This document shows positions 593-47,324 of a stretch of 64,000 nucleotides of DNA, piece after piece (the first letter of the stretch is position 1; every line of letters begins with the position of its first letter). A program made the translations under genes and the position numbers. Source of the DNA: Carallia brachiata (lineage: Eukaryota; Streptophyta; Magnoliopsida; Malpighiales; Rhizophoraceae); the NCBI GenBank assembly GCA_021464245.1, contig JADCRB010000013.1, forward strand, positions 12,001,245-12,065,244. Direction: 5' to 3'. Below the pieces are notes generated by a model. The model did not search any database and was not told the DNA's origin. It was given only the letters and a program-made list of their open reading frames with translations.

Positions 593-836
593 ATGAGGAG
601 TCGATCACCCACCCCGATCGAAGTCGGGGGCAAACACGACGAAGCCTGCTCACAAAATCCGACTCACACAGAAGAATCAGAAGAGTTTTCTCCCCCAGTC
701 TTCCCGAGTCTCATCTGTGCCGTCATGATGACCAACACAACCAGCACAGAAGAAAGAATTTCAGAATTGGAGAACAAAATTTTACAGCTGATCAGAGTCG
801 TGGAGGAAAAAGATCAACAGATCGCAGCTCTCAACG
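593..836 (+). pseudogene. Gag N-terminal segment
   Basis: The plus-strand frame reads through a coiled-coil-like stretch (ISELENKILQLIRVVEEKDQ) typical of the gag N-terminus in plant Tat/gypsy polyproteins. Homology stops near 836, where the next segment continues on the opposite strand. The true start is uncertain; a Met pair near 724-730 is plausible. Confidence 0.7.
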
Positions 837-837
837 G

Positions 838-1405
838 GCTCTCCTTTCCTTTGTTTGGTGCTAGTAAGCTCCATCATACTTATCGTCCTTCGAGTGCTGA
901 AAAATCTGTTGAGAAACTCTCGTTGTAGCTGTTCCCAACTATCGATCGATTCTGGTTCAAGATTTATGAACCAGGTGAAAGCGGTCTCCCTGAGTGAACG
1001 AACCAATTGCTTCACCAAGAGATCTCCATAATCCCTGCGTTGTTGCAGGTTTCAACGAAGTGGGCGATGTGCTGTTGGATCGCCTCGTCCGTCGAATTGT
1101 TGAAATTTGGGCGGCTGGTAGCCCAGGGGCATGTTGAGACTTTCGATCCGTCTGGTGTACGGTTTGACATACATCTGCGATCCTTGAAAGGATGTAGCTT
1201 GTTGCAGTCGGATCGTATTGGCTATCATTTCCTGCAATTGTTGAACAGATAGCGAAGCTACAGAATTTGAGTGTGGCAGCTGTGTAGAACTACCTGGTCG
1301 CTTTTCTGCAGGGAAGACGTCGGCTGGTGTGGCTTCTGGAGTGAAACCGGGTGGATATGGTTGCTCCTCGCGGATTTCGGGATCAACTTGGATCGGGGCT
1401 TTTCG
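838..1405 (-). pseudogene. Inverted middle part of gag
   Basis: Read on the minus strand this is the conserved core of plant retrotransposon gag: PPKFQQFDGRGDP, then a HFVETCNNAG-like stretch, then EPESIDSWEQLQREFLNRF. It ends at the point (KGEP) from which the plus strand resumes with YINRWRALSLDCKD near 1405. Two small frameshifts lie inside it, near 1019-1030 and 1070-1080. The segment was inverted in place or was misassembled. Confidence 0.85.
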
Positions 1406-2084
1406 AATACATCAACAGATGGCGTGCCCTCAGCTTGGACTGCAAAGATCACCTGACGGAGACTTCTGCCGTGGAGATGTGCATCCAGGGAATGCATTGG
1501 GAGCTGTTATATATCCTACAGGGTGTCAAACCCCGAACTTTCGAAGAACTGGCGACCCGCGCACATGATATGGAGATAAGCATCCAGACTTCCGGAGGCA
1601 TGGTTCCCATCCAGTTGGACCAGCAAGGGGGCAGAAGGGAGATTAAGAAACCCAACAACTCCGGAAAAGGAAAAGAAGTGATGACTGTTGAAGCCGCACC
1701 AGTAAAAGTGGGAGCTAAAGCCAAGGTAAATCCTCCGACCCAAATAACTCAGCCAAAACAACAGGAAAGGCGGAAGGTGACATTGCGAGAGTGGAGCAGA
1801 AGCAGTATCCATTCCCCGACTCAGACGTCCCCGACATTCTTGAACAACTCTTGGAGGCGAAGCTGATCGAACTCCCAGAGTGCAAGCGGCCGAATGAAAA
1901 GGATCGAGTCAGCGATCCGAGATTCTGCAAATATCACCGGATAGTAAGTCATCCAACCGAGAAGTGTTTCGTCCTGAAGGAGCTAATCATGAAGCTCAAA
2001 AGCCAGAATAAAATCATTCTGGACCAGGAAGGCATAACCTCGCAAACCAGACCACCATCACTTCAAAACCATCAGAAGAGGTGA
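1405..2084 (+). pseudogene. Gag C-terminal part
   Basis: The frame continues gag from YINRWRALSLDCKD through the conserved MCIQGMHW and RTFEELATRAHDME motifs, then shifts frame near 1790. It goes on to a C/H-rich stretch (FCKYHRIVSHPTEKCF) that resembles the zinc-binding end of Tat gag. Two different frames (ending 1866 and 2084) are needed to cover it, so this copy is broken. Confidence 0.8.
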
Positions 2085-2984: not shown

Positions 2985-3534
2985 GTCACGACGCTCAGAA
3001 GGTCAACCCCCTTTCTCTTATTGTATTGATCTTAAACAGGAGCAAGGTCATAGCCAACCCAAAACAAAGGAGCTGCACAACCTGAAGGAGACTTACACTC
3101 TGCCGATACCAAAGATTGAGCCGGTTTTGTCTTCAAAACCATTAAAAGGCTTCGTCAAACCACACACGGGGGCAGTCGAAGGCGGCTCACTTCCAGAAAG
3201 AAGAACACATGAAGGATTTGATCCTAATGCATACAAGCTTTTGGCAAAGGCGGGCTATGACTTTTCAAACCCGAGCACAATGGGTACGCTGCCGTCCACA
3301 CATGGCGCCGCTTCTCAAACATCACAGTCCCGACCTGGCTTAGGCTATCAGGAGAAGTCACCTGTGCGGATCACGCTAAAGAGCCGAAGCCGAGCAGCTG
3401 ATGCACGTGCCATCACCACCACCACCAAACAGACAGGCTTATCCAGTCAAACAAAGAAGGTGAAGTCAGAGGTTCTGCATTTCATGTCACAATTAGCGAG
3501 GAGGCTGATTCCGACTCATCAGATGGTGAAGTGA
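2977..3534 (+). pseudogene. Protease-RT linker of the gypsy polyprotein
   Basis: Open 185-codon frame with no recognised domain, rich in Lys, Ser, Pro and Thr. It lies between the protease and RT frames and overlaps both at its ends. Linkers of this kind, with text such as EGFDPNAYKLLAKAGYDF, are usual before RT in this lineage. It has no independent Met-initiated gene structure. Confidence 0.6.
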
Positions 3535-4616
3535 AGGAGGCTCCCCCGGAACTTGAAGATGGTGGCCAAGCAACTGTTGATGAACTCAAGGAGGTCAATC
3601 TTGGCTCTCCGGAAGATCCTCGACCTACATTTGTAAGTGCTTTACTTACTGCAGAAGAAGAGCAAGAATATGTTCAGGTATTAAGTCAATACAGGGACGT
3701 GTTCGCATGGAGTTACAAAGAAATGCCTGGACTTGACCCAAAAATTGCGGTGCATCTCGCAGTAAAGAAGGGTGTCCGTTCTGTCAAGCAGCCACAACGA
3801 CGGTTCCGCCCGGAACTCATTCCACAAATCGAGGAGGAGGTGAACAAGCTGATCAATGCCGGCTTCATCCGAGAGGTCACCTACCCAACGTGGATTGCCA
3901 ACATTGTCCCAGTAAGAAAGAAGAATGGACAGTTGAGGGTATGTGTTGATTTTCGAGATCTTAACAAGGCCTGCCCGAAAGATGACTTTCCGTTGCCCAT
4001 AACGGAGATCACAGTCGATGCAACAACGGGTCACGAAGCATTGTCTTTCATGGATGGTTCTTCAGGCTATAACCAAATCAGAATGGCACCAGAAGACGAG
4101 GAGTTGACAGCATTCCGCACCCCAAAAGGTATATACTGCTACAAAGTTATGCCGTTTGGATTGAAAAATGCTGGCGCCACTTATCAACGTGCTATGCAAA
4201 AAATTTTTGATGACATGCTGCACAAGATTGTAGAATGTTATGTTGATGACTTAGTTGTAAAGACTAAGAAGCGCAAAGACCACCTCGAGGATCTCAAGAC
4301 AGTGTTCGAAAGACTTCGGAGGCATCAGCTCAAAATGAACCCTCTCAAGTGCGCATTCGGTGTCACATCAGGAAAGTTTCTTGGGTTCGTGGTGCGCCAT
4401 CGTGGAATCGAAGTTGATCAGTCAAAGGTTGAGGCAATTCAAAAGATGCCTGAACCTAAAAACCTGCACGAGCTGCGAAGTCTACAAGGAAAGCTGGCCT
4501 ACATTCGCCGTTTCATCTCCAATTTAGCTGGGAGATGTCAACCTTTCCATCGGTTGATGAAGAAGGATGTCAACTTCGAGTGGGACGAAGCTTGCAGCAA
4601 AGCCTTTGAAGCATAA
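3531..4616 (+). pseudogene. Reverse transcriptase domain (Ty3/gypsy)
   Basis: All RT core motifs can be read: VCVDFRDLNKACPKDDFPLP, FMDGSSGYNQIRM, TAFRTPKGIYCYKVMPFGLK, the catalytic YVDDLVVK, and the thumb-side KCAFGV and GFVVRHRGIE. The frame stops at TAA 4614-4616, inside what should run on into RNase H. The next frame resumes the homology at once, so a single missing base is the likely cause. Catalytic residues are intact but the polyprotein is not. Confidence 0.9.
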
Positions 4617-4669
4617 AGAAGTACCTTTCCAATCCACCGGTCCTAGGTGCTCCAATTCAAGGAAAGTCG

Positions 4670-5557
4670 TTGATTCTCTACATTGCAGCGCAGGAAAGAT
4701 CTTTGGGAGCCTTGCTTGCACAGGAAAACGAGCAGGGAAAGGAAGTTGCCCTGTACTACTTGAGCAGAACACTAAACGGTCCGGAGCTGAGTTATTCGCC
4801 CATTGAAAAGACATGTCTAGCACTGTTCTTTGCCATTGACAAGCTGAGGCACTACATGCAAGCTCACACGGTACGTCTCATTGCCAGAGCTGATCCTGTC
4901 AAATATATCTTATCCAGACCAATCTTGTCAGGACGACTTGCCAAGTGGGCAGTAATCCTACAAAGCTACGACATTGTCTACGTGCCTCAAAAAGCAGTCA
5001 AAGGACAAGCTCTAGCAGACTTCCTTGCAGATCACCCTATTCCGTCAGATTGGGAGTTCACAGATGATCTTCCAGATGAAGAGGTCTTTTACATTGAGAC
5101 ACTACCACCATGGACGATGTTCTTTGATGGTGCAGCAAGGCGTGATGGTGCTGGTGCCGGCATAGTGTTTGTCACTCCTCAACGACAAATACTACCATAT
5201 GCTATCATTCTCGGTGAGTTATGTTCAAATAATGTTGCTGAATACCAGGCTTTGATCATTGGTCTTCAAATGGCTGTCGATATGAAGATTCCAACTATAG
5301 AAGTCCATGGAGATTCCCAGCTCGTCATCAACCAACTTACAGGATTGTATGACGTGAAGAAAGAGGACCTTGCGCCTTACCATCAACGTGCTCGACAGCT
5401 AATGGATGAATTTGAAAGCATCACCTTGGAGCATGTGCCTCGACGAGAAAACACTCAGGCAGACGCGTTGGCTAACCTGGCCACTTCTCTTGCAAAGTCA
5501 GAAATCCAGGCTACAGTTGTTGCCGTATGCCAGAAATGGATAGTGCCACAAGGATGA
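4670..5557 (+). pseudogene. RNase H plus second (archaeal-type) RNase H
   Basis: The first part (LGALLAQENEQGKEVALYYL to GRLAKWAVILQSYD) is the usual gypsy RNase H. After KGQALADFLADHP a second RNase H follows: FFDGAARRDGAGAG, NVAEYQAL, EVHGDSQLVINQL and ADALANLATS. These supply the four acidic catalytic positions D, E, D and D, all present. This dual arrangement places the element in the Tat lineage. The frame is offset from RT by one base. Confidence 0.9.
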
Positions 5558-5589: not shown

Positions 5590-6827
5590 GTCTCGCGGAG
5601 GACGAGGATTGGCGCCAACCAATCATTGACTACCTACAGCACGGGAAGCTGCCCGAAGATCGTCGTCATAAGACAGAAATTCAACGACGAGCTCCCCGCT
5701 TCATATATCTCAAGGATGCTCTGTATCGAAGGTCTTTTGATGGAGTTTACTTCGCTGCCTAGCCAATGAAGAGGCAAAACAGGCTCTCACTGAAGCACAT
5801 TCTGGTGTTTGTGGCGGACATCAATCGGGCCTAAGTTGCACTTCCAACTCAGAAGGATGGGATACTACTGGCCAACCATGGTACGTGATTCAATTGAGTT
5901 TGCTAAAACCTGTCAAGCTTGTCAATTTCATGCAATTACATACATCAACCACCGGAGCCACTGCATCCAACTGTCTCATCCTGGCCCTTTGAAGCTTGGG
6001 GTCTCGACTTAGTGGGGCCCTTGCCAAAGTCATCCCTGGGTCACCTGTACATCCTCGCAGCAACCGACTACTTCTCAAAATGGGCTGAAGCCATTCCACT
6101 TAGAGAGGTAAAGAAGGAGCATGTTGCCAATTTCATCCGGACTCAGCTGATCTATCGCTATGGAGTCCCTCGATTCATCATCACTGATAATGGTAAGCAG
6201 TTCTACAACAGCTTAATCGACAAGCTCTGCGAGAAGTTCAAGTTCAAGCAGTACAAGTCATCCATGTACAATGCCCCAGCAAATGGCTTGGCCGAAGCAT
6301 TCAACAAGACCTTATGCAACCTGTTGCGGAAGGTAGTCTCTAAATCCAAAAGAGATTGGCATGACAGAATTCCGGAGGCATTATGGGCGTATCGTACAAC
6401 TTACCGGACTCCAACACAGGCGACGCCATACTCACTTGTCTACGGTGTCGAAGCAATACTGCCGTTGGAAACACAGATTCCATCCCTGCGCATGGCTGTT
6501 CTGGAAGGACTCACACAGGAGGAGAATGCTCGCCTACGTCTGGATGAGTTAGAAGCTCTCGATGAAAGGAGGCTCGAAGCACAACAGCAACTTGAGTGCT
6601 ACCAAGCCCGGCTCACCAACACGTTCAACCGCAGGGTCCGCCCTCGATCTTTTCAAGTTGGAGACCTTGTTCTTGCAGTGCGACGGCCCATCAACATGAA
6701 GCATCGGCCTGGTGACAAGCTTACTTCCAAATGGGACGGGGGCCATACTAGTGCAGGAGGCCTACACTCACAACGCTTACATGCTGTCAGACCAAGAAGG
6801 CGTCCGAATCGGCCTAATCAATGGTAA
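5590..6827 (+). pseudogene. Integrase domain (Ty3/gypsy)
   Basis: The zinc-binding HHCC part can be followed (AHSGVCGGH, then KTCQACQFH), but it is split by frameshifts near 5540-5760 and 5930. The catalytic core is in the long frame from 5919: D in WGLDLVGPLP, D in RFIITDNGKQF, E in NGLAEAFNKTL. The C-terminal FQVGDLVLAVRRP resembles the usual end of gypsy integrases. The frame ends at 6827, immediately before a long A-tract. Confidence 0.85.
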
Positions 6828-6857
6828 ATTTCTGAAACAATATTATGTGTAAATATG

Positions 6858-6881
6858 TTTAAAAAAAAAAAAAAAAAAATC

Positions 6882-6912
<31 letters not shown>

Positions 6913-6928
6913 AAAAAAAAAAAAAAAT

Positions 6929-6969
<41 letters not shown>
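6858..6969 (+). repeat. A-tract broken by TC pairs
   Basis: About 112 bases, nearly all A, with four short TC interruptions. It directly follows the integrase end. It gives spurious Lys-rich and, on the other strand, Phe-rich open frames that are not genes. Confidence 0.9.
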
Positions 6970-6972
<3 letters not shown>

Positions 6973-6989
6973 CAAGTCCCGATCTGAAA

Positions 6990-7200
6990 ACCAAGCGAAA
7001 GTCCAAACCCAAACACTTGAGCCCTCAGACTCAAAACCCAAACACTCAACCCAAATCCAAAAGTCCAAACCCAAACACTCGACCCAAAACCCAAATCCAA
7101 CCCAAACCCAAACACTCAACCCAAATCCAATCCAAAGCCCAAAACCCAAAAAATTCCAAGTTCCAAACACAGTCCAGAAACCAAGTTCAAAATCCAATCC
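6990..7200 (+). repeat. Degenerate CCCAAAC/CCAAATC repeat tract
   Basis: Roughly 200 bases made of imperfect heptamers such as CCCAAAC, CCCAAAT and CCAAAAG, almost lacking G on the plus strand. It lies between the integrase and the homeobox sequence. No protein pattern was recognised. Confidence 0.75.
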
Positions 7201-7243
7201 AACTCCTGGCCCGCATGAGTATAAACTGTGAACGGCCCAAAAA

Positions 7244-7250
7244 TATAAAA
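7244..7250 (+). promoter_or_regulatory. Possible TATA box upstream of the homeobox sequence
   Basis: TATAAAA lies 89 bases upstream of the homeobox ATG at 7339, a normal spacing for a plant promoter with a short 5' leader. It may be a promoter carried along with the captured gene; AT-rich DNA makes chance matches common. Confidence 0.35.
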
Positions 7251-7338
7251 GCAACGGAGGGTTTGAGTCTGAAACTCAGCATCAGTCTCAACCGATCTTC
7301 ACCACACACCAGACCTTTGCTCCTCTGCCACAAGAAAG

Positions 7339-7963
7339 ATGGAACCAGTTGCAGAACCTCAAGACAAGGGAGAAGAAAGGTCACCCCGCACAAGGTGGCA
7401 ACCAACCATGGCAACTGCAAATTCTAGAGGAAGTCTTCCACAACAATGGAGGTATTATGCCTAATGCATCTCAGATTTACCAACTTGTCTCACGATTGCG
7501 CCCACTCGGGGCAATCGAAGGAAAAAATGTGTTTTATTGGTTCCAGAATCGGAGAAGCAGGAAGAAACCAGCACTGAGAGCTGATTTTTCCAAAGAACGT
7601 TTGCCGTTCCGATGGTAGATCCCACTGGTACAACTTCGCCGTCAAATGAAGCAGGTCGAGTTCTCCACTACAATGGTCTCTTCAGGCTATAACAATCAAA
7701 GCCGTAGCCCATGGGAGCATGCATGCTGGTCCTGGTGGTCTTACGGAGTCAGCCAAGGGTTCATCCCTCCTAGGTACTTTAGTCTAGGAGGACATTTTCT
7801 AGCAGAAAGGAGTCATTCCGGCGACACTTTGCCTCTCTTTCCAGAATATTCCGGCAGCATCAACCAGCCGGAAAGCGACGTCGACGTCGACGTCAACGTC
7901 AACATCATCGGCCCACCAGACGAGGTCGAGCTTGACTTGGAGTTGCACCTCGGGCCCCGCTAG
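7339..7963 (+). pseudogene. WUSCHEL-clade homeobox (WOX) sequence inside the retrotransposon, broken
   Basis: From ATG 7339 the frame encodes an acidic leader and RTRWQPT, the start of a WOX homeodomain. Near 7405 the frame shifts, and the homeodomain continues in the frame holding LQILEEVF, the IEGKNVFYWFQN helix-3 core and RRSRKK. That frame has a TAG at 7616-7618, then continues to a WUS-box (TLPLFPEYSG, ~7831-7860) and a leucine-rich EAR-like end (ELDLELHL) at the stop, 7960-7962. WOX proteins are plant transcription factors; WUS-box and EAR motifs mark the WUS clade and recruit TOPLESS-type co-repressors. No intron is obvious, although WUS genes usually have some. It sits between integrase and PPT, as a captured gene would. 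At least two lesions argue against a full product here. Confidence 0.8.
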
Positions 7964-7983
7964 GACGGCCGACAAGATAAGGT

Positions 7984-8083
7984 GCAACGACTTCTGCAAC
8001 GACTTCTGCAGCACGCGGCAATGACTTCCGCAGCACACGGCAACGACTTCTGCCACACATGGTAACGACTTTCGTGACACGCG
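7984..8083 (+). repeat. 22-bp tandem repeat downstream of the homeobox sequence
   Basis: About four 22-bp units plus a half unit, each close to GCAACGACTTCTGCAGCACACG, begin 22 bases after the homeobox stop codon. The units start at about 7996, 8018, 8040 and 8062, with a truncated one at 7984. Confidence 0.8.
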
Positions 8084-8911
8084 TCAGCCGCTGCCTCTTC
8101 TGTCTCTTATGTAGGAAAGGGACGTGGATGGCCCTACCCGATTCTGCATACCTTTTTTGACTTTTCAAAAAAAAAAAAAAAAACTCTTTATTATTTGTAT
8201 ATATATCGTGCATGCCCGAGTTGTAATATTCACCCCTCAGCTCTTCTTTCTCAAAAGAAAATGGCTAGTCTCTGCACTTGTCTCAGGAAGTTCTTCGATC
8301 AAGGAGTTGGAGGCGCACGAGCTAAGAAAAGAAGGAGTAGTCTTCTTCGAGGGATACCTAAAAGCCCTCGAAACTCAGTCTCCAACGCCATCGGTGTCAT
8401 GGAGTTCCAACTACTCTCCTTAGTTCACATCTACCATAGAGGGATGAGAAGCTGCAATTATCCTAATCTTTCTTTGGATGCAGCGACGTACAGGGAAGTT
8501 CCAACTACTCTCCTTACGTCGAAGCAGACTTGGAAATCATCACTACAGTCAGTCTCTCTGTGAGCCGGTCTTGAAGTTCCAAGGTCCTGAGCCTTTCTCT
8601 TGGGGAGGTTGAAGTTCTTTGCCTACCGGATCATCCTCACCAGAGCTCTGGAACTTTAAGAGATATAAAAAATCATTTGCGGGCTATGGAAGCTCGAATG
8701 CACCTGGAGCCAAGGCTTCAATTTCTATATTGGCTGGGGTGCTAACTTTCTCAAGATCGTATCGGATTCCTATTGCGATCTAACAACAGCAGGCATAGTC
8801 AAAGATAGAAGACTCCAAGATTCAATGTTCGTCAAGACGTTTCCAAATTTCAAATTGGACTTCAAGACTCGGTTCGAATCATCTCTGTAAAATTTTTTCT
8901 TACCGACCCTT
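8084..8911 (+). other. 3' internal region of the gypsy element, no gene recognised
   Basis: An A-run at 8167-8184 lies about 200 bases after the homeobox stop and could be the remnant of a poly(A) tail. An open frame at about 8261-8563 starting MASLCTCLRKFF has no family I recognise. The rest up to the polypurine tract shows no clear coding signal. Confidence 0.4.
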
Positions 8912-8923
8912 GAAGTGGGGGCA
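8912..8923 (+). promoter_or_regulatory. Polypurine tract of the gypsy element
   Basis: GAAGTGGGGGCA lies just before the TG that begins the LTR. This purine-rich block is the expected primer site for plus-strand DNA synthesis and looks like that of other Tat elements. Confidence 0.75.
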
Positions 8924-8925
8924 TT

Positions 8926-9700
8926 TGTAAACATCCTTTTCAAATTATAAAAAAAAAAAAAAAAAAAAGAAGAAGATTGGTGGCGTAAGGTCCTCTCTGG
9001 AGGGCCTATAAAAAGGCCCTCCAGCCTCAGTTCAAAGGGACATTCAGCAAATCTGTAAACAGAAAAATTCAGAGAATTTGAGAAAAAAAAATTTTGAAAA
9101 TCTCTCAAGAAAATTTCTCCTTTTCTTACGTGCTTTTATTCTGCAGTATACTCTCCTAACTCCTTTTTGAGAGATATTTCAGGGGTAAGGCCCAAAAAAT
9201 TTGCTGTTTCCATTTCTAAAATTATTTTTAAATTTATATTCTTGGATCGCTCTAGATCTGAATTTATGAGAATATAGATCTAAAAATATCAAATTACTAC
9301 AAATCCAGCTGGGATTAAGCCTCATACGGCCCTTAGCAAAATCCAGGCAGCTCATCCGAGAACAAGTCCCTTCGACCCTCGGTGAAATTAAGTCAGATCG
9401 GCTCAGATCTGGTCTCTACGGTTCTTAACCGTAGTCAAAACGTTCAAATCAGATCCGGTTTTAGTCTACCCAGTTCAAGAAAAAGCAGTGGAAATTATTT
9501 CTGTCAGGATCAAGCTCGTGCAGCCCTTGACGGAGTCAAAAAAGGAACACTAATCGGAGGATCTACGGAGATCGACTCCACGTAAATTTTCTTTTCTTTT
9601 ACAATTTTTATTTGTAATTTATTTTTGTATTTTCGAGTTTAATTGTTTTAGGCTCGAAATTTACGCTTTACACGATCTATATTTTTTTTTGTCATAATGG
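8926..9700 (+). repeat. 3' LTR of the gypsy element
   Basis: The LTR starts TGTAAACATCC directly after the polypurine tract. It contains a TATA box at 9007-9014 and a leader-like region downstream. No second LTR is present for comparison, so the end (about 9,600-9,700) is a guess. Confidence 0.65.
9007..9014 (+). promoter_or_regulatory. LTR TATA box within a short palindrome
   Basis: TATAAAAA is framed by GGAGGGCC on the left (8999-9006) and GGCCCTCC on the right (9015-9022), a perfect 8-bp inverted repeat around the TATA box. It should position transcription of the element about 30 bases downstream. Confidence 0.7.
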
Positions 9701-14869: not shown

Positions 14870-16130
14870 GAAAAATAACGGCAGGGATTTTCCAGACTGG
14901 AGCGGAAGCGAGAAAACAGCGGAAACCGCCCAATATACGGAGTCTGGACAGAGGCGGCGAGAGGAAGAGTTTCTGGGGCTGCTCTCTTCAGTTCTTCGAG
15001 GACACGGTACAGCGCGAATGATGATTTACAGGTTCTGCATTGTCTTTTTAAACTCAACTTTATTTTTGTTAATGTTTCCGGTTCTTTCTTGGTTTTTTTT
15101 TTTTTCCCCCTTCTTTTGGTTTCCAAGAACCAATCAAGATTCAACAATTTTAGCGATCAAAGTACGATTTCTGGGGGGATCAAGAATCAAGAGCTGGTGA
15201 ATTCGGTTTTACTTTCTTGGTAATGGTTTGTTGATTTGATTTTCTTTTTCACTTATGTTTTTTTTTTTTTTGTTTTCTTGGTTCTGTTTCTTTTATTATA
15301 ACATTTGACTTGTGGGTTAACACTGTGGGGAAAAAGATCCAAATTTTCCGGCTTCGAGGAATCAACAACCCTTGAACTCTGTTTACTTTCTCGGGAATGA
15401 TTTGTGTTTTTGATTTTCCTCTTTAACTTCTCTTGTCCCGTTTCTTTTATTACAACATTTGACTTAGTGTTAATACTGTGACAATCCTACACTTGTTCAA
15501 TCTGTTTCGCAGATTACACATGGTGGCAAATAATGGTGCTGTTCAAGAAAAAGATTTGAGAATTACACATTATCACCAATCAAGTTCAAAGGACGCAATT
15601 AGTTCTCCATCAAGTGTGTTCAAGAACCCCATTAAACTGGAGCAGCCTCAAATTCTCCTGTGGCATTAATCAAATGTTCATCTGGGCACTGTTGGAATCT
15701 TGGGGTCAGTTGGATTGTGGGAACAATTGCGTCATTTAGTTTAGGCACACACACCCTCCAGTGAAATCCTTATTTCTTTTTCATGATTTTGATATTCAGT
15801 CAATTTGGTTGTTTGGTAATTGGGTGCTTTGTGCAGTGTGATTTTCGGGAAAATTAGGATGGTGAGAAATTTGCCTCGCATGACATGCCATTTGTCGTAT
15901 TTCAAAACCAAAGGCAGTAGAAAGAGGGAGAGTCGTAGATCCTTGTATACAATGGCCTCTTTTAACTAAAAGGTAGGTAAGTTTGTTTTAATAGCTTTTT
16001 TTTATTTTTCTTTTGTTTAATTTCTGTTTACGAATCTTTCCCCTCAACACTTGATATCTTGGCTATCAACACTCTTAATTGCTCCCCTTTAAAGAAACTT
16101 GAATTTGAGTGTTTCTGTTTTTTTAACTTG
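14870..16130 (+). repeat. Duplicated block, unit 2
   Basis: 15,100-15,260 matches unit 1 (10,640) and unit 3 (18,050). 15,480-16,130 matches unit 3 at 18,420-19,080, including a block with the text GTGCTGTTCAA and GATTTGAGAATTACACATTA. A 63-codon open frame at 15,478-15,669 lies in the shared block but is not open in unit 3, so it is probably untranslated or relic sequence. No protein family was recognised. Confidence 0.6.
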
Positions 16131-17780
16131 TTTTTTCAGATTAATTTTTCTTCACTGCATACTTGTTTCATATAGCATCCTTGATACCTTTTTTGGACTT
16201 TGTTTTTTTTTTTTCCTTCTTTTTTTTTTTTTTCAAATTCAGGTGACTTGATATTTTTAGTGTCCTGCCCGTTGTCTGTTTTTTAAACCATTTCTTACAG
16301 CACTTTTTTTAATCTTGAAGCAATACCTATGGTTGATTATTGTGCGAGGCATATGTGACTTGTAAACTATGATCAAAATCTTATGAAGGGCGACTTCACA
16401 GCTCCCACAGAGTGAAAGTTAGCTTGCCAGATAGTTTCCCAGCTATAGCCAGAAGCCAATCAAAGATTTAGCCAGCCTCAAATATTGCTTTTACTTTCAT
16501 CTCTTACGGATCTTCTTCATTAAGTAATGATTTTCCAATTTAATTCATGAATATTATTCTAAATTTGAATTTATCAACTACTGTGGGATTATGTTAATAG
16601 CCATTTGATGAAACTTTACATGTGATGCTTGAAATGCTGCAAGCAGCGTTAAGGCGGGTGGGCATGGTTATTTATGTGGCCTGTATCGCTTCCATTTCCT
16701 TGCTTGTTTCCAGTCCTAGCTTTTTTTTTTTCGATTACTCATATCTCTGTGTTCGAATTTAAAATCATAGGTCATGAAGCATCAGCATCATAAGTCCCTA
16801 CCCTCCTGTAGTTCTTAACACCTGAGCATGACATTTTCCTGATCCTTTTATCAGCATAAATGCAGTTGATGTTCTTAAGTTACTTCTCTTCAGCACTTTT
16901 ATGTTTGTGATGAAATGCGTTTTATATTTCATCGGTAATCATATCTTTCCTTTTGTTTCCAGTCACCAGTCCTATATGACTGGACACAATTCAGAATGGA
17001 ATCACGCCGAGTTATTGTCTCATTTTGCCATGTCTGCCAGCTATCTATCTATATATATGTATATATATATATATATAGCCACATATTACTGAATGTTATC
17101 AGAAATATTGTGGTCGGTGACATATTATGTATGATTAATGTAGATTATTTTGCCTGCAATGAATACAAGTCTTTTACATTAGGTTCTTAATACTCCCTTA
17201 TTTGAGTTTAAACTTGAATTATATAAAGACTTACTTATCTTTTGCTCTTCATTTTTTTTCCCAAGAAGCTTTTGTGCTATTCGTCTATTGGTTTCTCAAA
17301 TCTGCCACATATTTGGCAAGTCTAATTTGAATATCTTGTCTTCGAGGTGCTTTAAACCAATTCAAGTTACTTGTTTATGATGCCTTTTGGTTGTAATTCA
17401 TGCCTGAAGGTGGTAGCTGAATCTTTGGAGCTGGTGACTTTGTTATGATGGTAAAACTACTCTTTTGTTATTAATTGCTTTCAATATAAGCAGCATGATT
17501 GTTATATGTATTTACTAATTATAGTCTCAGACCGCATTGTACAGATTGCTCCAAGTAATGTGATGAAAGCAGCGGCTATGATTTTTTGTTTTGATGGTGT
17601 TATCTGAACAATCCTTCAAAGTGATGGTCGGATTGACCTTCAGGTTAATGCTTTTCAATTATAGTATAAAATTTGTAAAATAAATTTATTTCTGCTTTGC
17701 TGCGTCATTGAGTAGAAAGCCTTACAATGTTTGGCTGCTTTTATAGTTACCCGAAGAAAGGAAAAACTTGCTAGGACTGC
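16131..17780. other. Non-coding DNA with TA microsatellite
   Basis: No gene was recognised. A TA-rich microsatellite lies at about 17,045-17,078. The rest is T-rich and looks like intron or intergenic DNA of the duplicated blocks. Confidence 0.5.
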
Positions 17781-17809
17781 TTTTATTTTCTTTTATAGTT
17801 ATTTATTGT

Positions 17810-20800
17810 TTTGTCCTTATTGTTATTTTCTTGGCTATCAACACTCTCTCCAATATACACCAGTCTGGCAGAGGCAGGGAGAGGAAGAATTTCTAGAATG
17901 GTCTCTTCAGTTCTTCGAGGACGCAGTGTGAGAGCAACGATGATTCTGATTGTCATGATGCTGGCTCTTGTAATGCATTTCTTTTTTCCTGATTCAACTT
18001 TCTTCTTTGTTTTTTCATATTTCCGGTTCTTGTTTCTTTGGTTAATTTTTTCTACTTTTGATTTCAAACAATCTATCAAGATTCAACAGTCTGGAGAGTT
18101 TAACGAACAGGGTCCGATTTCTGGGGCGTCGAGGAATCAAGAATCGTTGAATTCGGATTACTTTCTCAGTAATGGTTTGTGTATTTGATTTTCTCTTTCT
18201 TTTTTGTCTATTTCTTTTATAACATTTGACTTGTAGCCTTGTGGGTTAATACTGTGGCAAAAAAGATCCAATTGCTGAGGCGTTGAGAGAATCAAGAATC
18301 TTTGAATTCAGTTTACTTGCCTCCGTAATGGTTTGTGTTGTTGATTTTCTTTCTTTCTTTTTTTTTTTTTTTCTATTTTCTGTTTTTTTTTGTAACATTT
18401 GATTCGTGGGTTATTAGTGTGACTTGCAGAATACATGCGTGGTGGGATTGATGGTGCTGTTCAATGAAGAGACTTGAGGATTACATATTATCATCAAGCA
18501 TGTTCAAAGGATGCATTTACTTCACATCAAATGTGTGTGCCCCATGGTGGTAACTTGTAAGTGAACTCTTTATCCGCCTCCTATTGTGATTCCTTGATTC
18601 GAACCCTGAAAAAACCTTGAATTGTTTCTGACATTGAGACTTCAATACTGGGTCATCAAGCGTTTGTGCAATGGGGTCATTTGGATTATGGACACAATTG
18701 CATCATTTAATTTAGGCTCACCCTCCAGTGAATTGCTTATGTCTTTACGATTTGGATATTGTGTTAATTGGGTGCTTTGTGCTGTGTGATTTTCAGGGAA
18801 ATCTACATGGTGGGAAATTGGCCTTACATGACAGCCCATTTGTGTATTTTAAACCAAAGGGAGTGGAAAGTGGGAGATCCTTAGACACAACGGCTTCTTT
18901 TGACTGAAAGGTTGGTAAGTCTGTTTTAATGGCTTTTTTGTTTCGTTTGTTTGATTTCTGTTTATGAATCTTTTCCCCTCAATATATGATTTCTTGGCAA
19001 TTAACAGTCTCTTAATTGCTCCTGTTTAAGAAATTTGAATATGAGCATTTCTGTTGATTTAATCTGTTTTTTCAAACTAGTTTTTCTCGACTTCATGCTT
19101 GATTCATATAGCATCCTTCGTCAATTTTTCCTGAATTTGGGGAGCGAGCAGAGAGTGCTAATGGTTGTTTTTGTGCAAGAGATTGGTAACTTTGTTTCTT
19201 ACTATCCCTACTCATCTGCTTTTAATTTAATAGTTTCCTTTCGTTTAATTTCTTTTTACGAATAATTTCCTCTCAAGTCTCAACATTGAATGTCTTGGTT
19301 ATCAGGTCTCTTTTAATTGCTCCCTGCTAAGGAAATTTGAGAGTTTTCTTTTTCTTGATTTTAATTTTTATTGATAGGATTTCTCGACTTCGTGCATATT
19401 TTAGAAAGTATCCTTAGTATCTTCTCTTGAATTTTGGATCAGGTTTGGAGTCTGTTTCCTTTTTTCCTTGTTTACTGTTTCTTCTTTTGCTATCTTTTTA
19501 TTGTTTTAAGACTCGAATTTCAGTTTTGTGTCACAATCTTGGGAGCAACTCTCTCGCTGCCTCATTAGAGTTGCAAAGAACCAATCTTTAATGTAACAAG
19601 GATCACTGATCGAAAGAGAAGGACAATGAAAGGGGCTGGCCTTTCTTTCTTGTAATCTGGGCATGTTATAATCGTTTTTCCAAGAAACTAAACATTTTGA
19701 TTTAGAAGTGTTTATAATTGGAAGGAATCCTATATATTTGTGTTAGACAAATTTTTTTCTCAATCAGTGATCCTTGTATTAAAGATTGGTTCTTTAGAAC
19801 TCTAGCAAGGCAGAGAGAGAGAGAGAAAGAGAGAGAGAAGGAATCAATCATATGTTGCATTCTTCTTTTGATGTGGATTCACATTTTTTGCATATTTGTA
19901 TTTGCTTTCTTGATCTTCACAAAATTGCAAATTGCCATGGGTTGAAATAAATCATATGTTTCTAAGGATTTTGAGGCGCACTATCAAAAGTTTTTGTGGA
20001 CAGGGGACTTCATTGGGATTGCATCATATGTCCTTTTCTACTTGGTTGATATCTTCGATCATTCTGCTAATGTATGGTCGTATAATTTCCTTATCCCTGT
20101 ACTGTGTGGATACAGTTTAGACAGCAAAACTAAAAGGTAATAATTACTGCCTCCTGCACTCTTCTCCATTCTGTAACCACCTTTCTCTTCTTCACTTCTC
20201 ATTTTCTTTCTCTATGACATGGGGGATACCCTTTTTCTTCTTTGGTCAGCTGAAGCTACATATTGCTTTGAAACTAATAAAACTAGCTTAATATAATATT
20301 TAGCATAGAAGCATTTTTTGTAATTCTGAGATTCAACATGATTATCTAGTTGCTGCCTTATTTTCATTAATAAGCACTGACTAGAAGGTAGGGACTCTTT
20401 CAACCAACCTGCTGTATCAGTAGAAGATGAGGGATATCTGACATGCTACATTTAAGAATCGTCGCTATTGACCCCTTTAGAATCTTAATCTGACCAATTA
20501 TCTGTTTTGTGGCAGAGCATACTTCTATGGTTTCATAAACTTGCATGGACACTAAAATTAGTTGATATAAGCATATGGTGAAGATTGAAAGGTTTATACA
20601 CTGCCTTCCATATGGACAGGTATTTCTACCTTTTATTTGGATGTATAATTCTATAGCACTGTTACATGAGAGTGCTTATAACTGGCAAAAAAGCCAACTG
20701 TGATTGCATATTAGCACAAGTTGACTAGAAATAAGTTCAGACATCTTCTGGTGCGCCAATCGTGGGTTCCACTAAAACATTTAAGCACACAACAAATTTT

Positions 20801-31500: not shown

Positions 31501-31584
31501 CATATATGCCCATTATTAACTAAATATTTAACAGACAATAGATCAGTAGATCCAAATCCAATCCAAAATTGTTGGGTTGGTACG

Positions 31585-31935
31585 ATGAGAAATATATTAA
31601 GTTTGCTCACAACTGTCTTCTTGATCCATCAGCTGTTATTGTCTTCTCATTTAGGTTGTTACGTTGTGGAGGCTTCCGCAGGTCGGCAGCTGGCTCCTTG
31701 CCGGCCGTTCTTCTTCGCCGGAATTTCTTCTAATAATGAATGTTCTTTCCACAAGTTCAACTCAGACATCAGTAGAAGGGTCTTCCGACGGTCGCCTCCG
31801 CCACCTCCTAAGCTGAACAATCGACCGCAATGGAAAAGGAAACCTCCTAGGCTGCCGCCACCTCCTCCACCTCCGCCACAGCCACCGTCACCGCCACCGC
31901 CACCGCCACCACCACCACCACCGTGTCCATATTGA
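31585..31935 (+). CDS. Small secreted proline-rich peptide precursor, copy A (intact)
   Basis: A 116-aa single-exon frame from ATG 31585. The N-terminus (MRNILSLLTTVFLIHQLLL) is a signal peptide. A conserved middle follows: FFAGISSNNECSFHKFNSDI, then SRRVFRRSPPPPPKLNN. The C-terminus is a polyproline tail ending CPY. It is probably exported to the apoplast and may be processed at the paired arginines; no known peptide family (CLE, CEP, IDA, PIP, RALF) fits clearly. Copies B (34,563) and C (54,605, minus) share the middle segment. The conservation in copies that otherwise differ suggests selection on the GISSNNECS to SRRVF part. The function is unknown. Confidence 0.7.
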   Translation: MRNILSLLTTVFLIHQLLLSSHLGCYVVEASAGRQLAPCRPFFFAGISSNNECSFHKFNSDISRRVFRRSPPPPPKLNNRPQWKRKPPRLPPPPPPPPQPPSPPPPPPPPPPPCPY

Positions 31936-32590
31936 TGGTAAATGCTATGTAGTCAGATGAGTTTGACTGACATCATTACTTAAGATGCTTTTGATTTCCA
32001 GGCTAGTTTGCCTGTTTTAATAGCTACCAATAAATGCAGCCATTCTACTAATTATTGTGATTTAATGTTAAATATTGAATATTGTTAAGTTAAAAATCTT
32101 AAATTTAAAAATTATCAAGACTTTGGTGAGATTAAATATACTTTTCTCATTTGTAATACTTGACTATACTAAGGGTAAAAATAATTCTATTTAGCAAGAT
32201 TCTGAAGCACCACCTCATTTCTTTAACAAAAAAAAAAAAAATAATAAATTGCAGCATGAGCTTCTCTTAATGAATAATCAAACACATCATGTCTTGCACT
32301 CATGTTTTTTTTTTTCTCTATGTAAACTTGACAACTGCAATTTTCTTATTGATTTTTGTCTCACTGTTTTTTTTTTTTATTAGAGCCAACATATATTTTT
32401 TGAACTTGCAATCCCATGTAGCTCGGTGTAAATTACTAGCGTTGATCTATGAACCAAAACATATATCTATCTTTGTGTGTGACGGGTTAATTGATTCGCC
32501 CTGATATGATGAAGATTTTAGCGAAAAAGTCTCACATCTTAAGACGTTTGAGGTGTAAATAGGGTGATTTTTAATGTAATTTCACTTTAA

Positions 32591-32869
32591 GGGTATGTTT
32601 GTTTTACTGTAAAATAACTTACATTTATAAAATATTTATAAAAAAAATATTTGTAGTGAAAATAATAATTTTCCTTTATTACTTACTTATAGTACAGTTT
32701 GTGTTTTCCCTAAAAATAACTTCAGTTTTATAAAAAGAGAAGTTATTTTACTTGAAAATCTAAAAAAATTTTCAAATTTTACTTATGTAAAATATTTTTC
32801 GTAAAACAAACGCCGAAAAATTTATAAAATTTTTTTTTATAAAATATTTTATAGGAAATAAATACACTC
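32591..32869. mobile_element. Tourist-like MITE (TAA target duplication)
   Basis: 279 bases present in the copy A unit and absent at the matching point of the copy B unit (35,370-35,400). The ends are GGGTATGTTTGTTTTA and, inverted, GAGTGTATTTATTTCC, with TAA on both sides (32588-32590 and 32870-32872). A TAA duplication suits PIF/Harbinger-type MITEs. Confidence 0.65.
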
Positions 32870-33689
32870 TAAATATAAGTTTTCTTTTATGTGAATGAGC
32901 TGCAACGGAAAAAAAAAAAAAATCTTTGTATTTAACTTGAAAATTTCATGTAAAAACTAGACATTAATTGCCGACATTAGGAAACAAAATTTCAAGCCAT
33001 GTGCCTTGTATCCTGCTGGCTACAATTTAATGGAAACTGGCTGCTGGAAACTGGCAACAGGGCTCTCTACCAACCAACGTCAAGATTTGGCTGGACAGAA
33101 AAAAGGTAAACGGAAATGTTTAGTATATATATATTCGTACACATATTCATATATATATATATAATAATTATTTTTTATATTACATTAACAAAAAATTTTG
33201 TTTTGAAAATTTCATATAATATATATACTTTATATTTTAAGATAATATTTATTTAAATTTAAATTTAATTTTTTAAAAAATATATATTAAAATATTAATA
33301 ACGCCTCAACTAATGCACCTCTCGCATGAAGTAAATTACCAGGACTCAGAATTCCATCGCATCCAAGACGCGTACAATGACATAAAAGATTAATAAAATT
33401 ATACAAGCAAAATGTGGTGAAAAAATTAATATTTAAATTTCACAAAAGTAACATTTTTAACGGCTAAAAAAAGTTTAGGAGTCCCTACAAATATTTTGAT
33501 TTTTGTTTCGATATGTTTAAAAAGAATAATTAATAATCAATTTTTTATAATTGTCGTAATAAAAAGGAGTAATAAGAAATAAAATGGTAGTTTATATTTT
33601 AATTTTTTGTTAATCTTTTTATCGATAAAATTATAATAATTTGACAGTTAGTTACTCTTTATAAACATATCGGGACAAATTTAAAGACA

Positions 33690-34470
33690 AAGGGTTTGTT
33701 TGGTTTTACTGTTGTAATTATTATTACTATTACTTATTGTTAATTACCGTTACTGACTGCTGATTGTTATTATTGATGAACAAAATAAAATTGAGTGTTT
33801 AGTTAAATCAACATTAGTTAATTATTGTTAAAGTAATATAATGACTATTTCAAATATTCTATTTACGTTTTATTATTATAAATAATCTTTTTACCTATGT
33901 ATAATCTAAATTAGTTTTATAAAAATATATATTATATATTTATAAATAAAAATTTATTAAATATGTGACTTAAAAGCCAACTGCAATTTACATAATAAAA
34001 AATGTTATTTTTATTGTATAGATTTTTGTGTTCTAAAAAATAATAATAATTTTATATATTTGGAATATAAAAATATTGTTTTAGTCCTTTTTCGTAAAAA
34101 TAGAAAAAAATAGTTTTCTATTAAAAAATATTATTTTATTTTTTTGGATGAAACCCAAACCGTAATTTCTTCCAGAAATTAGAAAATCATTAAAAACAAG
34201 TTTTGTCCGTAAGCTTCAATCTTCTAGTAGCCCAGGTCATGCATCTTAACGGTGGAAGGAATTTCCTAGGTTGCGACAAGGTTATTTTTGTAATTAATTC
34301 ATTTATTAATTACTGATTATTTTAAAAAATAATTTTAATTTATTTTTTTTATCAACTGCTATTAGGAATACCTTTTATCCCAACAGCAAGATAAAAACTT
34401 TTACCAAACACTCTAATATTTTACCTTTCGCAAGTGAATAACAACAGTAACTACGAAAGGTAAAACCAAG
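33690..34470. mobile_element. Possible degenerate TIR element between peptide copies A and B
   Basis: The left GGGTTTGTTTGGTTTTAC and right GTAAAACCAAGCACTCTC look like inverted ends of an AT-rich insertion. It lies between the two duplicated peptide units. No clear target duplication was found. Confidence 0.35.
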
Positions 34471-34562
34471 CACTCTCAAAATCTGACGAGGCTTCTAAAC
34501 CAAACCTTTTAACAGACAATAATAGATCAGTAGATCCAATCCAAAATTGTTGGCTTCGTACG

Positions 34563-34905
34563 ATGAGAAATATATTAAGTTTGCTCGCGACTTTCTTCTT
34601 GATCCATCGGCTGTTTTTCTTCTCGTTTAGGTTGTTGCATTGTGGAGGCTTCTGCAGGTCAGCAGCTGGCTCCTCGCCGGTCGTTCTTCTGCGCCGGAAT
34701 TTCTTCTAATAATGAATGTTCTTTCCAAAAGTTCAACACAGACATCAGTAGAAGGGTCCTCCGATCCCCCCCACCACCTCCTAAGCTGAACAGTCAACCG
34801 CATTGGAAAATAAAACCTCCTCTTCCGTCCCCATATCCTCCTCCTCCACCGCCACCACCTCCTTCGCCTCCGCCATCCCCACCACCACCACCGTGTCCAT
34901 ATTGA
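34563..34905 (+). pseudogene. Small secreted proline-rich peptide, copy B (frameshifted)
   Basis: ATG 34563 begins the same signal-peptide text as copy A (MRNILSLLATFFLIH), but two bases are missing near 34,610-34,630. The conserved part (ISSNNECSFQKFNTDI, SRRVLRSPPPPPKLN, polyproline tail, CPY end) is therefore in another frame with no ATG of its own. Unless splicing repairs the frame the copy is dead. The flanks 34,513-36,000 match those of copy A. Confidence 0.7.
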
Positions 34906-37229
34906 TGATAGATGGTGGGCAGATGAGTTTGACTGACATCATTAATTAGAACAGGCTAGTTTGGCTGTTTTAATAGCTACCAATAAATTGCAGCCATGAG
35001 CTTCTCTTAATGAATAATCAAAGACGTCATGTCTTGAACTCATTGTTTTTTTTTTTTTTTCTCTATGTAAATTTGACAACTGCAATTTTCTTATTGATTT
35101 TTGTGTCTCTCTGTGTTTTTTTTTTTTTAGAGCCAACATATATTTTTTGAACTTGCAATCCCATGTAGCTTGGTGTAAATTACTAGCGTTGATCTATGAA
35201 CCAAAGTATATGTCTTTTTTTTTGACATAGAACCAAAGTATATGTCTATCTTTGTGTGTGATGGGTTAACTGATTCGACCTGATATGATATGATATGATC
35301 TGATGAAGATTCTTGTAGAATGTTCTCACGTCTTCAGATGTTTGAGATGTAAATAGGGTGATTTTTAATGTAATTTCACTGTAATTGTAAGTTTACTTTT
35401 ATGTGGATGAGCTCCAACAGAAAAAACAAAAAAACACTTTGTATTTAACTTGAAAATTTCAAGTCAACTTTGTGCCTTGGATCCTGCTGGTTGCAATTTA
35501 ATGGAGACTGGCTGCTGGAAACTGGCAACAGGGCTCTCTACCTACCAATGCCAAGAATTGGCTGGACGGAAAAAGGTAAAAAGAAATGTTTGATATACAC
35601 ATATTTATATATGTATTCGTATATATATAAATATAATAATTATTTTTTTTGTATTATATTAACAAAAAATTTGTGTTTTAAAAATCTTATATAATATCTA
35701 TAATTTATATTCTAAAGGAACATTAATTTAGATTTAAATTTAAATTTAATTTAAATAAAAATTAAAATACTAGTGACACCTTTACAACTTACCTAGCAAA
35801 AGAAAAGGCAAGGACCCATAAATATTGATATGTCTAGCTCACTTCCACCAACAAAAAGAGAAAGCTATTTCTTACTGTCTCGATGGAGCTATTTGGTCCC
35901 AAAAGTAAATTACCAGGACGCGCAATTCCATCGCAGCCCAGACGTGCACAATAGCATGAAGATTAATAAAATTATGTAAGCAGTTTGAGTTTAATGTGGT
36001 GAAAAAAATAATATTTGAATTTCACAAAAATTAAAATCTCAAAAAGATTACATTTTTGAAAACGCAAAACCCTCCGGAAACATCCCATAAAATTGGAATG
36101 ATATTTCGTTTCGCATAAAGAAGGGAACGAAAAAAGTGAGTTGCACAAACTGGTTGATAGTCAGCTCTCATATCCAGCCAATTCATGGTCGGCAAAGTTG
36201 ACTTTGAATCTTCTCCCACATCCCCAAAAAAAAAGTTGACTTCAAAAGTTTTATTGTGTCATTCGAGGGTGTTACAATATATCAAATTAGAAAATTTAAA
36301 AGAGTGGAACTACTTTCTTTGGGTTTGAATAATTAAATTTTTTTTAAAAAAAATTAATTTTGAATTTTGTGAATAAAATAGATAAGTACAGAGAGAATTG
36401 TACTTCTTTATAGACCCACTTAATTCAATATAAATTAATCAAAATTTAATAATTTCAAAACTTTAGATACCGGTAATAAAAACAAAAAATAAAAACAAGA
36501 GCCAACGCTCGTATAGGGAAGTCACCTCACCCTATAATTTGGCCTCCCTAGTAAAGGGGGCCGTCTGAGCAACCTGTCTCTTTTGTAGGACTCGTATCAA
36601 ATTTTTGCAGAAGTGTTTGGGTAACGAGTGGGTCTTCGATTAAAATTTTCGATTATCGTGCACAATTCCTAATGTTGATAGTTATTACTTTGGCAGTTAG
36701 GGTGCAAGAACATTTTATATTAAGAGTTTATATAAATTTATCACTAATTTTTATTTGTTGATGAAGACTTCAGTTTGCTTTACGTTGTAAACAATTTCAA
36801 ACACATCCGAGTTTCCATATGTGTGAGATTTATTGGTACTTTGAATGATTTATAAAAGATGTTGAATCAGCTTACTAATAGGTGACTTTCGATATGAGCC
36901 TACAACTATAGCAAATTTCACAGATAAATACACAAACATCTTCTGGTCTTTTTGACATTTTTCTCTTTTTATTACAACCCTAAACACTATATGAGTAAGA
37001 AGACGATGATTAAGCAATAACATTTCAATATTGACCAAGCAAAAGGTAACAAAATATTATATTTATTCTTTCTCACGACAAAATTCGTGACAATGACTTA
37101 AAATTAAGAGGTCAGACGGTCGTGTCATTAAAACACAGTGTGGCTAATGGCATTAGAATAACTCCATTCAGCTTCACATTATGATACCCTTTCTTATTTG
37201 CATCCTCCACCATTTCAAAAGAAAAAGAA

Positions 37230-42200: not shown

Positions 42201-42235
42201 CAGTTGTTAAAAAATAAAAAAATTTAAATCAATGG

Positions 42236-42720
42236 TTGGTGGAACGGGTGATACATCCCGTCACGCACTTGAATGACAATGCTGATGGCGTTCACAAGGA
42301 GGTTACAGACAGGTGTGAATGTAACTTTAGTTTAAATGTTGTTGGATTGATTATGTATTTTTTTTACGTATTATTTCTATCAAATTACAATAAAAAAAAA
42401 AAAAAGCAAATAAAGGTCTTTGATGGATCGAAAGCCGGAGTAAAGGGCTTGTTGATGCTGGGATGGCGCGTATACTGGAACTTTTGTCAGTCGGGCCAAG
42501 ATTCACCCGTCATGCCACGCTTGCACTGCCTCTTGTTAAGCCATGGAATAACTTGGAATGTGAAACGAGTCTCACTCGGCAGCAACTTGTCTATGGGAAA
42601 TGGGGACAGCACAACTTAAATCTGAAAAAATAAACAATGGCGCTTCTGCTGGAACTTTAGAAGTCTTGCTATTAAGTATAAGGTGAATTCTAAATTCAGC
42701 TGTGTCCGTCTCTGACATGA
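42236..42720 (+). pseudogene. Dioxygenase exon 1 relic and flank, unit 1
   Basis: 42,413-42,475 encodes VFDGSKAGVKGLL, matching the AFDESKAGVKGLV segment of the downstream dioxygenases, and then loses the match. The following 150 bases are shared with 47,380-47,472 and 48,358-48,490, apart from the hAT insertion there. So the duplicated unit contained a third, now truncated, dioxygenase start. Confidence 0.6.
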
Positions 42721-43129
42721 TTTTCTAAAAACCAAAAACTATTTATTTATTGTTGATTGATATCACAAATGACATCAAGAACAATATGCAAGTTGTGCGC
42801 ATTTTGAAGTCAAACATAGTATGTAAGCTTTGTTTACTCCATAATACAACAATGGAAGGAGAAGATGCCAGGCTGAGATATTGATAACGTATGCATTATT
42901 GTTTTGGTCTTTGAACATAATCATAACTTATACACATGTGGGCGAGAAAAATTAGTAAGAGGTAGAGTTTAAATTTCAATTTTTTACTTGAACGTAATAT
43001 TCGTGCAGTAAATTAGTTACACTATACATGCTGGTTTGAGTGCATTATTGTCCTAACATAGAAAGTCACTTTCCTTTTGCATGAAAGAGTCATGCAAAAA
43101 TAGAAAGAGTACAGTTATATATTCCGAGT

Positions 43130-43274
43130 GAATTTGTCTTAAATTTTGTTTCGGTTGAAACGGTGACTAATATTTTTGAAACTAATACTAATATTTTTGA
43201 AATGTAAAAATAATAAGTGTTTAAAAAATATCAGTCGCAATTTTAATCGGGACAAAACTCGTGACAAATTTACC
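43130..43274. mobile_element. Fold-back MITE, copy 3 of the three-copy family
   Basis: The left AATTTGTCTTAAATTTTG and the inverted right AATTTGTCACGAGTTTTG are matching ends, with TGACTAATATTTTTGAAAC mirrored by TGACTGATATTTTTTAAAC further in. About 145 bases. Confidence 0.65.
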
Positions 43275-47320: not shown

Positions 47321-47324
47321 CTAA

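Follow-up and report, generated by a model that had tools for sequence, protein, structure and literature searches.

We consider it probable that a Tat-type family of Ty3/gypsy retrotransposons in the genome of Carallia brachiata captured a processed WUSCHEL-type gene long ago and has kept it as an accessory gene in sense orientation, the product of which would act as a repressor in trans, most likely on host promoters. The window analysed here, a stretch of 64,000 nucleotides (C25:12001245-12065244), begins with one such element in its first 9.7 kb, and the genome in which relatives were sought comprises 337.5 Mb in 164 contigs.

The 5' part of the window copy (1-1411) is scrambled. Positions 1-471 repeat 2239-2708 (98.9%), a single N stands at position 472, and the N-terminal half of gag is inverted (782-1411, minus strand, with Retrotrans_gag PF03732 at 782-1051), whereas in L032 and L073 these gag pieces have plus-strand orientation. 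The remaining gag (1345-2084, plus strand, as are all features that follow) is homologous and collinear in five other copies (L031, L034, L035, L036 and L042), and was also identified by tblastn. It is followed by an aspartic protease region (2268-2984; PF13650/PF13975, E 6e-4 and 7e-4, below the curated cut-offs), the reverse transcriptase (3402-4616; PF00078, E 1e-34), an RNase H and then a second RNase H-like domain (4610-5557; PF17917, E 1.9e-23, at residues 19-120, and PF13456, E 4.2e-25, at residues 172-291), and the integrase (5907-6827; PF00665, E 6.5e-11). The 2.1-kb segment from the integrase to the polypurine tract (GAAGTGGGGGCA, 8912-8923) contains the WUSCHEL-type gene in sense (7339-7963). 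The same polypurine letters stand 5' of the 3' LTR in a copy on C99, and the 3' LTR of the window element (TGTAAACATC...TTTACA, 8926-9672), whose ends were set against complete copies, matches the LTRs of other copies.

A sequence-only reading of the window had described three hallmarks of a WUS-clade transcription factor between the integrase and the polypurine tract, and all three are found there in the order it gave, with the integrase upstream and the tract and 3' LTR downstream. They are the homeodomain (7393-7579; PF00046, E 1e-9; of WUS-type length in open copies), the WUS-box TLPLFPEYSG (7826-7855) and the EAR-like C-terminus ELDLELHL (7928-7951). The last two were identified by reading the sequence, and the C-terminus matched Pfam EAR (PF07897) at E 0.18, under the cut-off. 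The frame is broken in the window copy, in which comparison with two open copies shows four small losses that shift it, with one stop between; open copies usually encode 207 aa.

The order of the pol domains (reverse transcriptase, RNase H, integrase) is that of Tat-clade Ty3/gypsy elements. A dual RNase H is described as a feature of the Tat family (PMC9289625), and because the window element has one it is, by its domain content, a Tat-type Ty3/gypsy element, the clade assignment resting on this feature. We would not file it under the Retand lineage, since no TRP28 domain was found in the antisense ORFs of the integrase-LTR segment (all 10 of at least 60 aa) or of the intact copy L007 (6 of at least 80 aa). 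One antisense ORF had a sub-threshold match, to DUF1816 (E 0.007). Two clusters of the Retand survey are likewise described as being without a TRP28 ORF (PMC11963269).

It had also been proposed from the window alone that the gene spread with the element, the check being a search for many copies, each between an integrase and a 3' LTR; the spread was borne out, and such copies were found. A first look gave 1223 candidates for the homeobox-bearing 2.1-kb segment, and the 40 of these that were scored show at least 95% identity, with the query covered in full or to within two bases. A homeobox word of 42 nt (up to 3 mismatches) was counted 638 times in the 337.5-Mb genome, the corresponding word of a second subfamily, which differs from it at six positions, 143 times, and a 42-nt integrase word 733 times; the reversed controls for both homeobox words, and the control for the integrase word, gave 0. 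Integrase, homeobox segment, downstream segment and LTR follow one another in this order on one strand in 28 of the 30 best copies (a number that includes the window copy and L027, which has an integrase piece of 151 bp only), the exceptions being L005 and L008. For 64 of the 100 integrase words listed in C1-C40, a listed homeobox word lies 1378-2183 bases downstream on the same strand, a pairing that drew on 89 homeobox places from incomplete lists. With a partial place list 21 of the 40 best integrase matches were paired with a homeobox, and 26 once 16 places had been added. Three unpaired integrase copies were read, those on C3 and C7 (2 of the 36 left unpaired in C1-C40) and one on C40 from another integrase list. 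All three carry the WUS-type gene, each with its frame broken, and no integrase copy that was read proved to lack the gene.

An assembly artefact or a single event is ruled out by the spread of the copies over many contigs, and a nested insertion of the gene into one element by its identical position in 28 of the 30 copies. A clean target-site duplication was not established in the LTR comparison of copies.

The gene is also found in relatives in which pol was not detected. One locus (L005/L032, on C110) combines a piece of LTR with gag and the WUS-type gene, and shows no match to protease, reverse transcriptase, RNase H or integrase in the stretch read, and another (L008/L033, on C49) has LTR pieces and the gene with neither gag nor pol matches. 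At the third (L091/L101, on C77) C-terminal gag remains upstream, and no integrase or other pol match occurs in the 801 bases read upstream; there is an A-rich stretch just upstream, and the very end of pol was recognised by eye. Judged on these remains L091 is itself an element gene. As these three loci show the gene with no pol detected nearby, the WUS-type gene occurs without pol.

Copies with an open frame, which the sequence-only reading had advised looking for, are numerous. We read 64 copies (L001-L030, L043-L072 and L039-L042; L069 and L002 are one locus, counted twice), and in 29 of them the ATG, the WUS-box and the LDLEL of the EAR-like end are all in the frame of the homeobox. Open ORFs made up 18 of the 30 best matches, 7 of 30 copies taken in contig order with the exact homeobox word, and 4 of 4 others. 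The ORF is 207 aa long in 25 of the 29 open copies; it is identical in 12 copies, there being 16 distinct sequences in all, and open frames occur in two subfamilies. When a distant homeodomain was used, 143 of the 150 places scored had no stop in the matched stretch, a count that favours intact copies because these places were the best 150 of 1669 candidates. Some insertions are recent. The paired LTRs differ, gaps apart, at 11 of 688 aligned positions in the C88 copy, at 11 of 534 and 8 of 467 in the C99 copy and at 3 of 510 and 1 of 369 in the C105 copy (overlapping pieces in the latter two), a divergence of about 0.5-2%. At a substitution rate of 1.3e-8 per site and year these three insertions would be about 0.2 to 0.8 million years old.

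The other 35 of the 64 copies, the window copy among them, lack a full open frame, as might be expected if the gene were a captured piece that rides in a high-copy element and has no function of its own. Captured fragments are described as common in LTR elements (PMC13317346, PMC7264820). The occurrence of open frames in two subfamilies and of the gene in relatives without detected pol argues against such a passenger, as do the pattern of selection and the conserved leader.

Selection was estimated pairwise from Nei-Gojobori counts with our own script, over few lineages. In comparisons of the homeodomain between L091 and three other copies omega was 0.13 (L007; Fisher P 2.6e-9), 0.11 (L093; P 2.0e-10) and 0.14 (L096; P 5.1e-9), with dS of 1.2-1.8; between L007 and L091, 29.5 of 45 synonymous sites differ. 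L007 gave 0.13 with L100 (P 0.001) and 0.14 with L096 (P 0.006); all five pairs share branches and so are not independent. Constraint was weaker between subfamilies A and B (omega 0.32-0.54; P 0.004 for L007/L093), and close pairs with 2-5 synonymous changes gave 0.39-0.68 (L089, L090 and L092 mutually, and L098/L096). The rest of the protein is loosely constrained, with omega of 0.37-0.64 in 13 of 15 pairs, and among the distinct intact ORFs, the only ones taken into this comparison (16 of 29), pN/pS was 0.15 in the homeodomain vs 0.60 in the C-terminal part. By these ratios, purifying selection has acted on the homeodomain in the divergence of element lineages. The contrast in dS between L007 and L093, 0.44 in the homeodomain and 0.13 in the C-terminal part, suggests that element lineages may have recombined.

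Upstream of the gene, a block of about 127 bases 5' of the ATG (7212-7338 in the window; TATAAA at -119, TATAAAA at -95) is shared by the window copy and the 10 copies aligned with it. The alignment comprised these and L091; L050, whose start words differ, was left out. The leader is retained in L005 and L008 despite differing sequence further upstream, and in L091 it is identical to that of the window at 101 of 124 aligned positions, with 13 gap columns, though about two thirds of the synonymous homeodomain sites differ between L091 and L007. The second TATA-like box of L091 reads GATAAAA, and tandem repeats of about 44 bases with GAGTATAAAA stand just upstream of its leader and gene. From its letters the block looks like a putative core promoter with a short leader. 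Passenger debris is disfavoured by the homeodomain omega of 0.11-0.14 at such high dS, and with the leader conserved as well we regard a functionless passenger as very unlikely. We take the gene instead to be a gene of the element, because many copies keep its frame open and selection acts on it.

The relationship of this gene to WUSCHEL is indicated by several comparisons. The window homeodomain has WUSCHEL as its best solved relative (6ry3, E 2.4e-14), to which it aligns without gaps, vs a gapped alignment to STENOFOLIA, and the best database relatives of the intact L007 ORF are WUSCHEL proteins (E 3e-18). The element homeodomain has the length of WUS, forming 63-letter rows with WUS vs 62 for the other host WUS-clade loci. 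The EGKNVFYWFQN of WOX-type homeodomains is present, with variation at that stretch in subfamily B and L091, and T, L, L, F and P of TLPLFP are nearly invariant in an alignment with 24 WUS/WOX proteins, some copies having the variants TLSLFP and ILPLFP. Pfam EAR was not listed at E 0.1 for the open L007 ORF. This ORF had relatives in 419 proteins at E 0.01 or below among 513 candidates, with none above 53% identity in the best 120 of the 419, and no annotated protein exceeded 54% among 20 of 20 matches and the best 120 of 419 listed. This does not imply that the gene is absent elsewhere, because annotated sets often omit element genes. No relatives were found in plasmids, nor, by homeobox or integrase, in viral contigs, a collection from which records near this genome may be left out.

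At least nine separate host WUS-clade homeobox loci score above the element copies, and two of them group with Erythroxylum WUS; by E-value, the nearest relatives of host WUS are two Erythroxylum novogranatense proteins (64 and 66%). The host WUS on C90 has two introns between the homeodomain and the WUS-box, whereas the element gene is intronless, and it was therefore probably a processed WUS-type copy that was taken up. On this sequence evidence the element gene is derived from a processed (intronless) WUSCHEL-type copy, and the capture by a Tat-type element that had been proposed is upheld by its lack of introns and by the position of the gene inside the element. In a tree of 63 columns the element homeodomains group as one clade (98/100) whose long branch measures 1.1 changes per site, with no clear position inside the WUS clade. 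They share 27-33 of 66 residues with the homeodomain of host WUS, synonymous sites being saturated. The long branch and the saturation indicate that the capture would have taken place long ago.

A further suggestion of the sequence-only reading was that element copies could give rise to small RNAs that silence the host gene. There are hundreds of element copies that might serve as a source. However, seven element copies compared with nine host WUS-clade homeobox pieces and the remainder of one WUS gene have no exact DNA match above 14 nt; such an effect on host WUS appears extremely improbable, and the suggestion found no support.

If the gene acts through its protein, the following course of events can be proposed. 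A Tat-type family would have picked up a processed WUSCHEL-type gene and retained it in sense between pol and the 3' LTR. The protein, made either from the TATA-bearing leader or from the element transcript, may enter the nucleus and bind DNA through its WUS-like homeodomain. WUS represses through TOPLESS-type corepressors, and recruitment of these by the WUS-box and EAR-like tail could lead to repression in trans. A model of the ORF predicts a three-helix homeodomain, with pLDDT of at least 90 at 50 residues and the remainder unreliable (mean 62), and the best solved match to the modelled homeodomain is that of WUS on TGAA DNA (6ryd). As only 27-33 of the 66 residues are common to host WUS, the DNA specificity of the element homeodomain may differ.

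The known WUS target words TGAATGA, TTAATGG, TCACGTGA and TTAAT(G/C)(G/C) were not enriched in three LTRs or the leader, which favours, without proving, host promoters as the targets, most likely in dividing or meristematic cells. It also weighs against a protein that binds its own LTR or the repeats before the gene and so times or limits transcription, in the manner of retroviral regulatory proteins, although the element protein may prefer other words. The tandem repeats with GAGTATAAAA directly upstream of the gene in L091 would fit such autoregulation, and a regulatory role has been proposed for the accessory proteins of Retand elements (PMC11963269); we regard it as possible but doubtful. 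The protein might alternatively compete with host WUS for sites or corepressors, for example so that foreign elements are less effectively excluded from stem cells. Such exclusion has been reported for WUS, and a WUS-type homeodomain length, the WUS-box and the EAR-like tail are retained in the element protein. However, at least half of the residues of its homeodomain are not those of host WUS, and this kind of interference seems unlikely.

A repressor acting on host promoters remains the reading we prefer, and action in meristem cells could conceivably favour new insertions that reach the germ line. In its boldest form this would mean that the element uses a WUSCHEL of its own to keep cells in, or drive them into, a stem-cell-like state, or to remove the defences of stem cells, so that insertions enter the cells from which the next generation is made; we offer this tentatively and think it rather improbable. 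If it were true, the family would be a plant counterpart of an acutely transforming retrovirus. LONELY GUY has a role in the shoot meristem, and the LONELY GUY domain of Citrus elements would then suggest, together with the present case, that plant retroelements have again and again equipped themselves with regulators of the shoot meristem. With this family it can be tested whether retrotransposons of plants gain access to the germ line by altering the identity of cells, and its WUS-type homeodomains form a set diversified by nature. Copies of the element may also swell the number of WOX genes counted in related genomes.

Capture of host genes by LTR elements has been described before, and what would be new is a stem-cell master regulator under purifying selection in several hundred copies, of which we found no description. 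In the literature searched, most subscription papers lying outside it, we found no account of an LTR element with a WUS or homeobox ORF. No words beginning with WUS or homeo occur in the main text of four papers on such elements (PMC9289625, PMC11963269, PMC7264820, PMC13317346), and the available part of a WUS review does not mention an element-borne WUS (PMC13116129).

With WUSCHEL, of the WUS clade of WOX proteins, the element gene has in common a homeodomain of WUS length, a WUS-box and an EAR-like end. It differs in being intronless, mobile and multicopy, in its length of about 207 aa and in a homeodomain identical to that of host WUS at 27-33 of 66 residues. Acute transforming retroviruses carry captured growth regulators, and the likeness lies in an LTR element with a processed host growth regulator; those viruses transform cells, whereas the present case is a plant element known from its sequence.

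Among plant elements, the accessory ORFs of Retand and Grande occupy the same slot between pol and the 3' LTR, but are described as mostly antisense and as encoding a TRP28 domain, with a proposed nuclear regulatory role (PMC11963269, PMC7264820). The accessory gene of Grande is reportedly transcribed from its own promoter, with a nuclear product. The slot holds here a sense ORF with a WUS homeodomain, and according to the Retand survey no sense ORF in the pol-LTR region encodes a known domain (PMC11963269). Among the nearest parallels are the Gypsy elements of Phalaenopsis with an ORF for an AlkB m6A demethylase, which are nested in the Tat family (PMC9289625). These too have a dual RNase H and gained a host-type gene as an extra ORF that was kept through replication; theirs is an RNA-acting enzyme and not a developmental transcription factor. 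Other extra domains of plant Gypsy elements include YgdH/LONELY GUY (Citrus, poplar), B3 (Aegilops tauschii), PMD, G-patch, AIR1 and ArgoL2 (PMC9289625). They resemble the present case as host-type regulatory domains, LONELY GUY acting in cytokinin control, but no homeobox or WUS is named among them in the main text, rarer domains being charted in the supplement (PMC9289625). Maize Bs1 is likewise an LTR element with transduced host gene segments, described as partial segments of three other host genes (PMC13317346), whereas the Carallia family appears to carry a whole regulator, under purifying selection and in hundreds of copies.

The WUS-type gene looks to be mosaic between element lineages: when copy L093 is compared with L007, a copy with an intact open reading frame, dS is 0.44 in the homeodomain and 0.13 in the C-terminal part. 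The gene is also present in two short relatives (L032 on contig C110 and L033 on C49) in which pol was not detected, and gag is likewise missing from one of the two. At these same loci, a leader alignment found single units (L005 and L008) that resemble the tandem repeats of L102 (G000:C77:2045061-2045399), which have a unit of about 44 bases and contain GAGTATAAAA. A diverged element-borne WUS-type gene lies immediately 3' of the L102 repeats.

In the integrase-bearing copy L103 (C40:2695150-2695750) the frame breaks resemble, by eye, single missing bases within homopolymer runs. Assembly errors may lie behind some of the broken gene copies, and the share of open copies may therefore be a lower bound. 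In the window element itself, the N-terminal gag is inverted in 1-1411 compared with other element copies, a single N stands at position 472, and 1-471 is repeated at 2239-2708 with 98.9% identity. The arrangement of 1-1411 reflects either rearrangement of the DNA at this spot or a join made during assembly.

Elsewhere in the window, a Ty1/copia element (58302-63411), with integrase preceding an RVT_2 reverse transcriptase (E 3e-74, domain search), is very young, as its terminal repeats (58302-58519 and 63194-63411) are 100% identical across 218 bases. A 2-oxoglutarate-dependent dioxygenase gene is tandemly duplicated (44099-46601, with DIOX_N at E 1e-23, and 50831-53926; 86-88% identity in the best-matching pieces), and further direct duplications occupy 14930-19118, 31527-36029 and 42220-50481.

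Among database relatives, the proteins P0012-P0014 are WUSCHEL-like and short. Two of them, P0013 and P0014, have names that refer to Ipomoea, and P0012 carries no name; the homeodomains of all three are of WUS length and sit on a long branch of the homeodomain tree.
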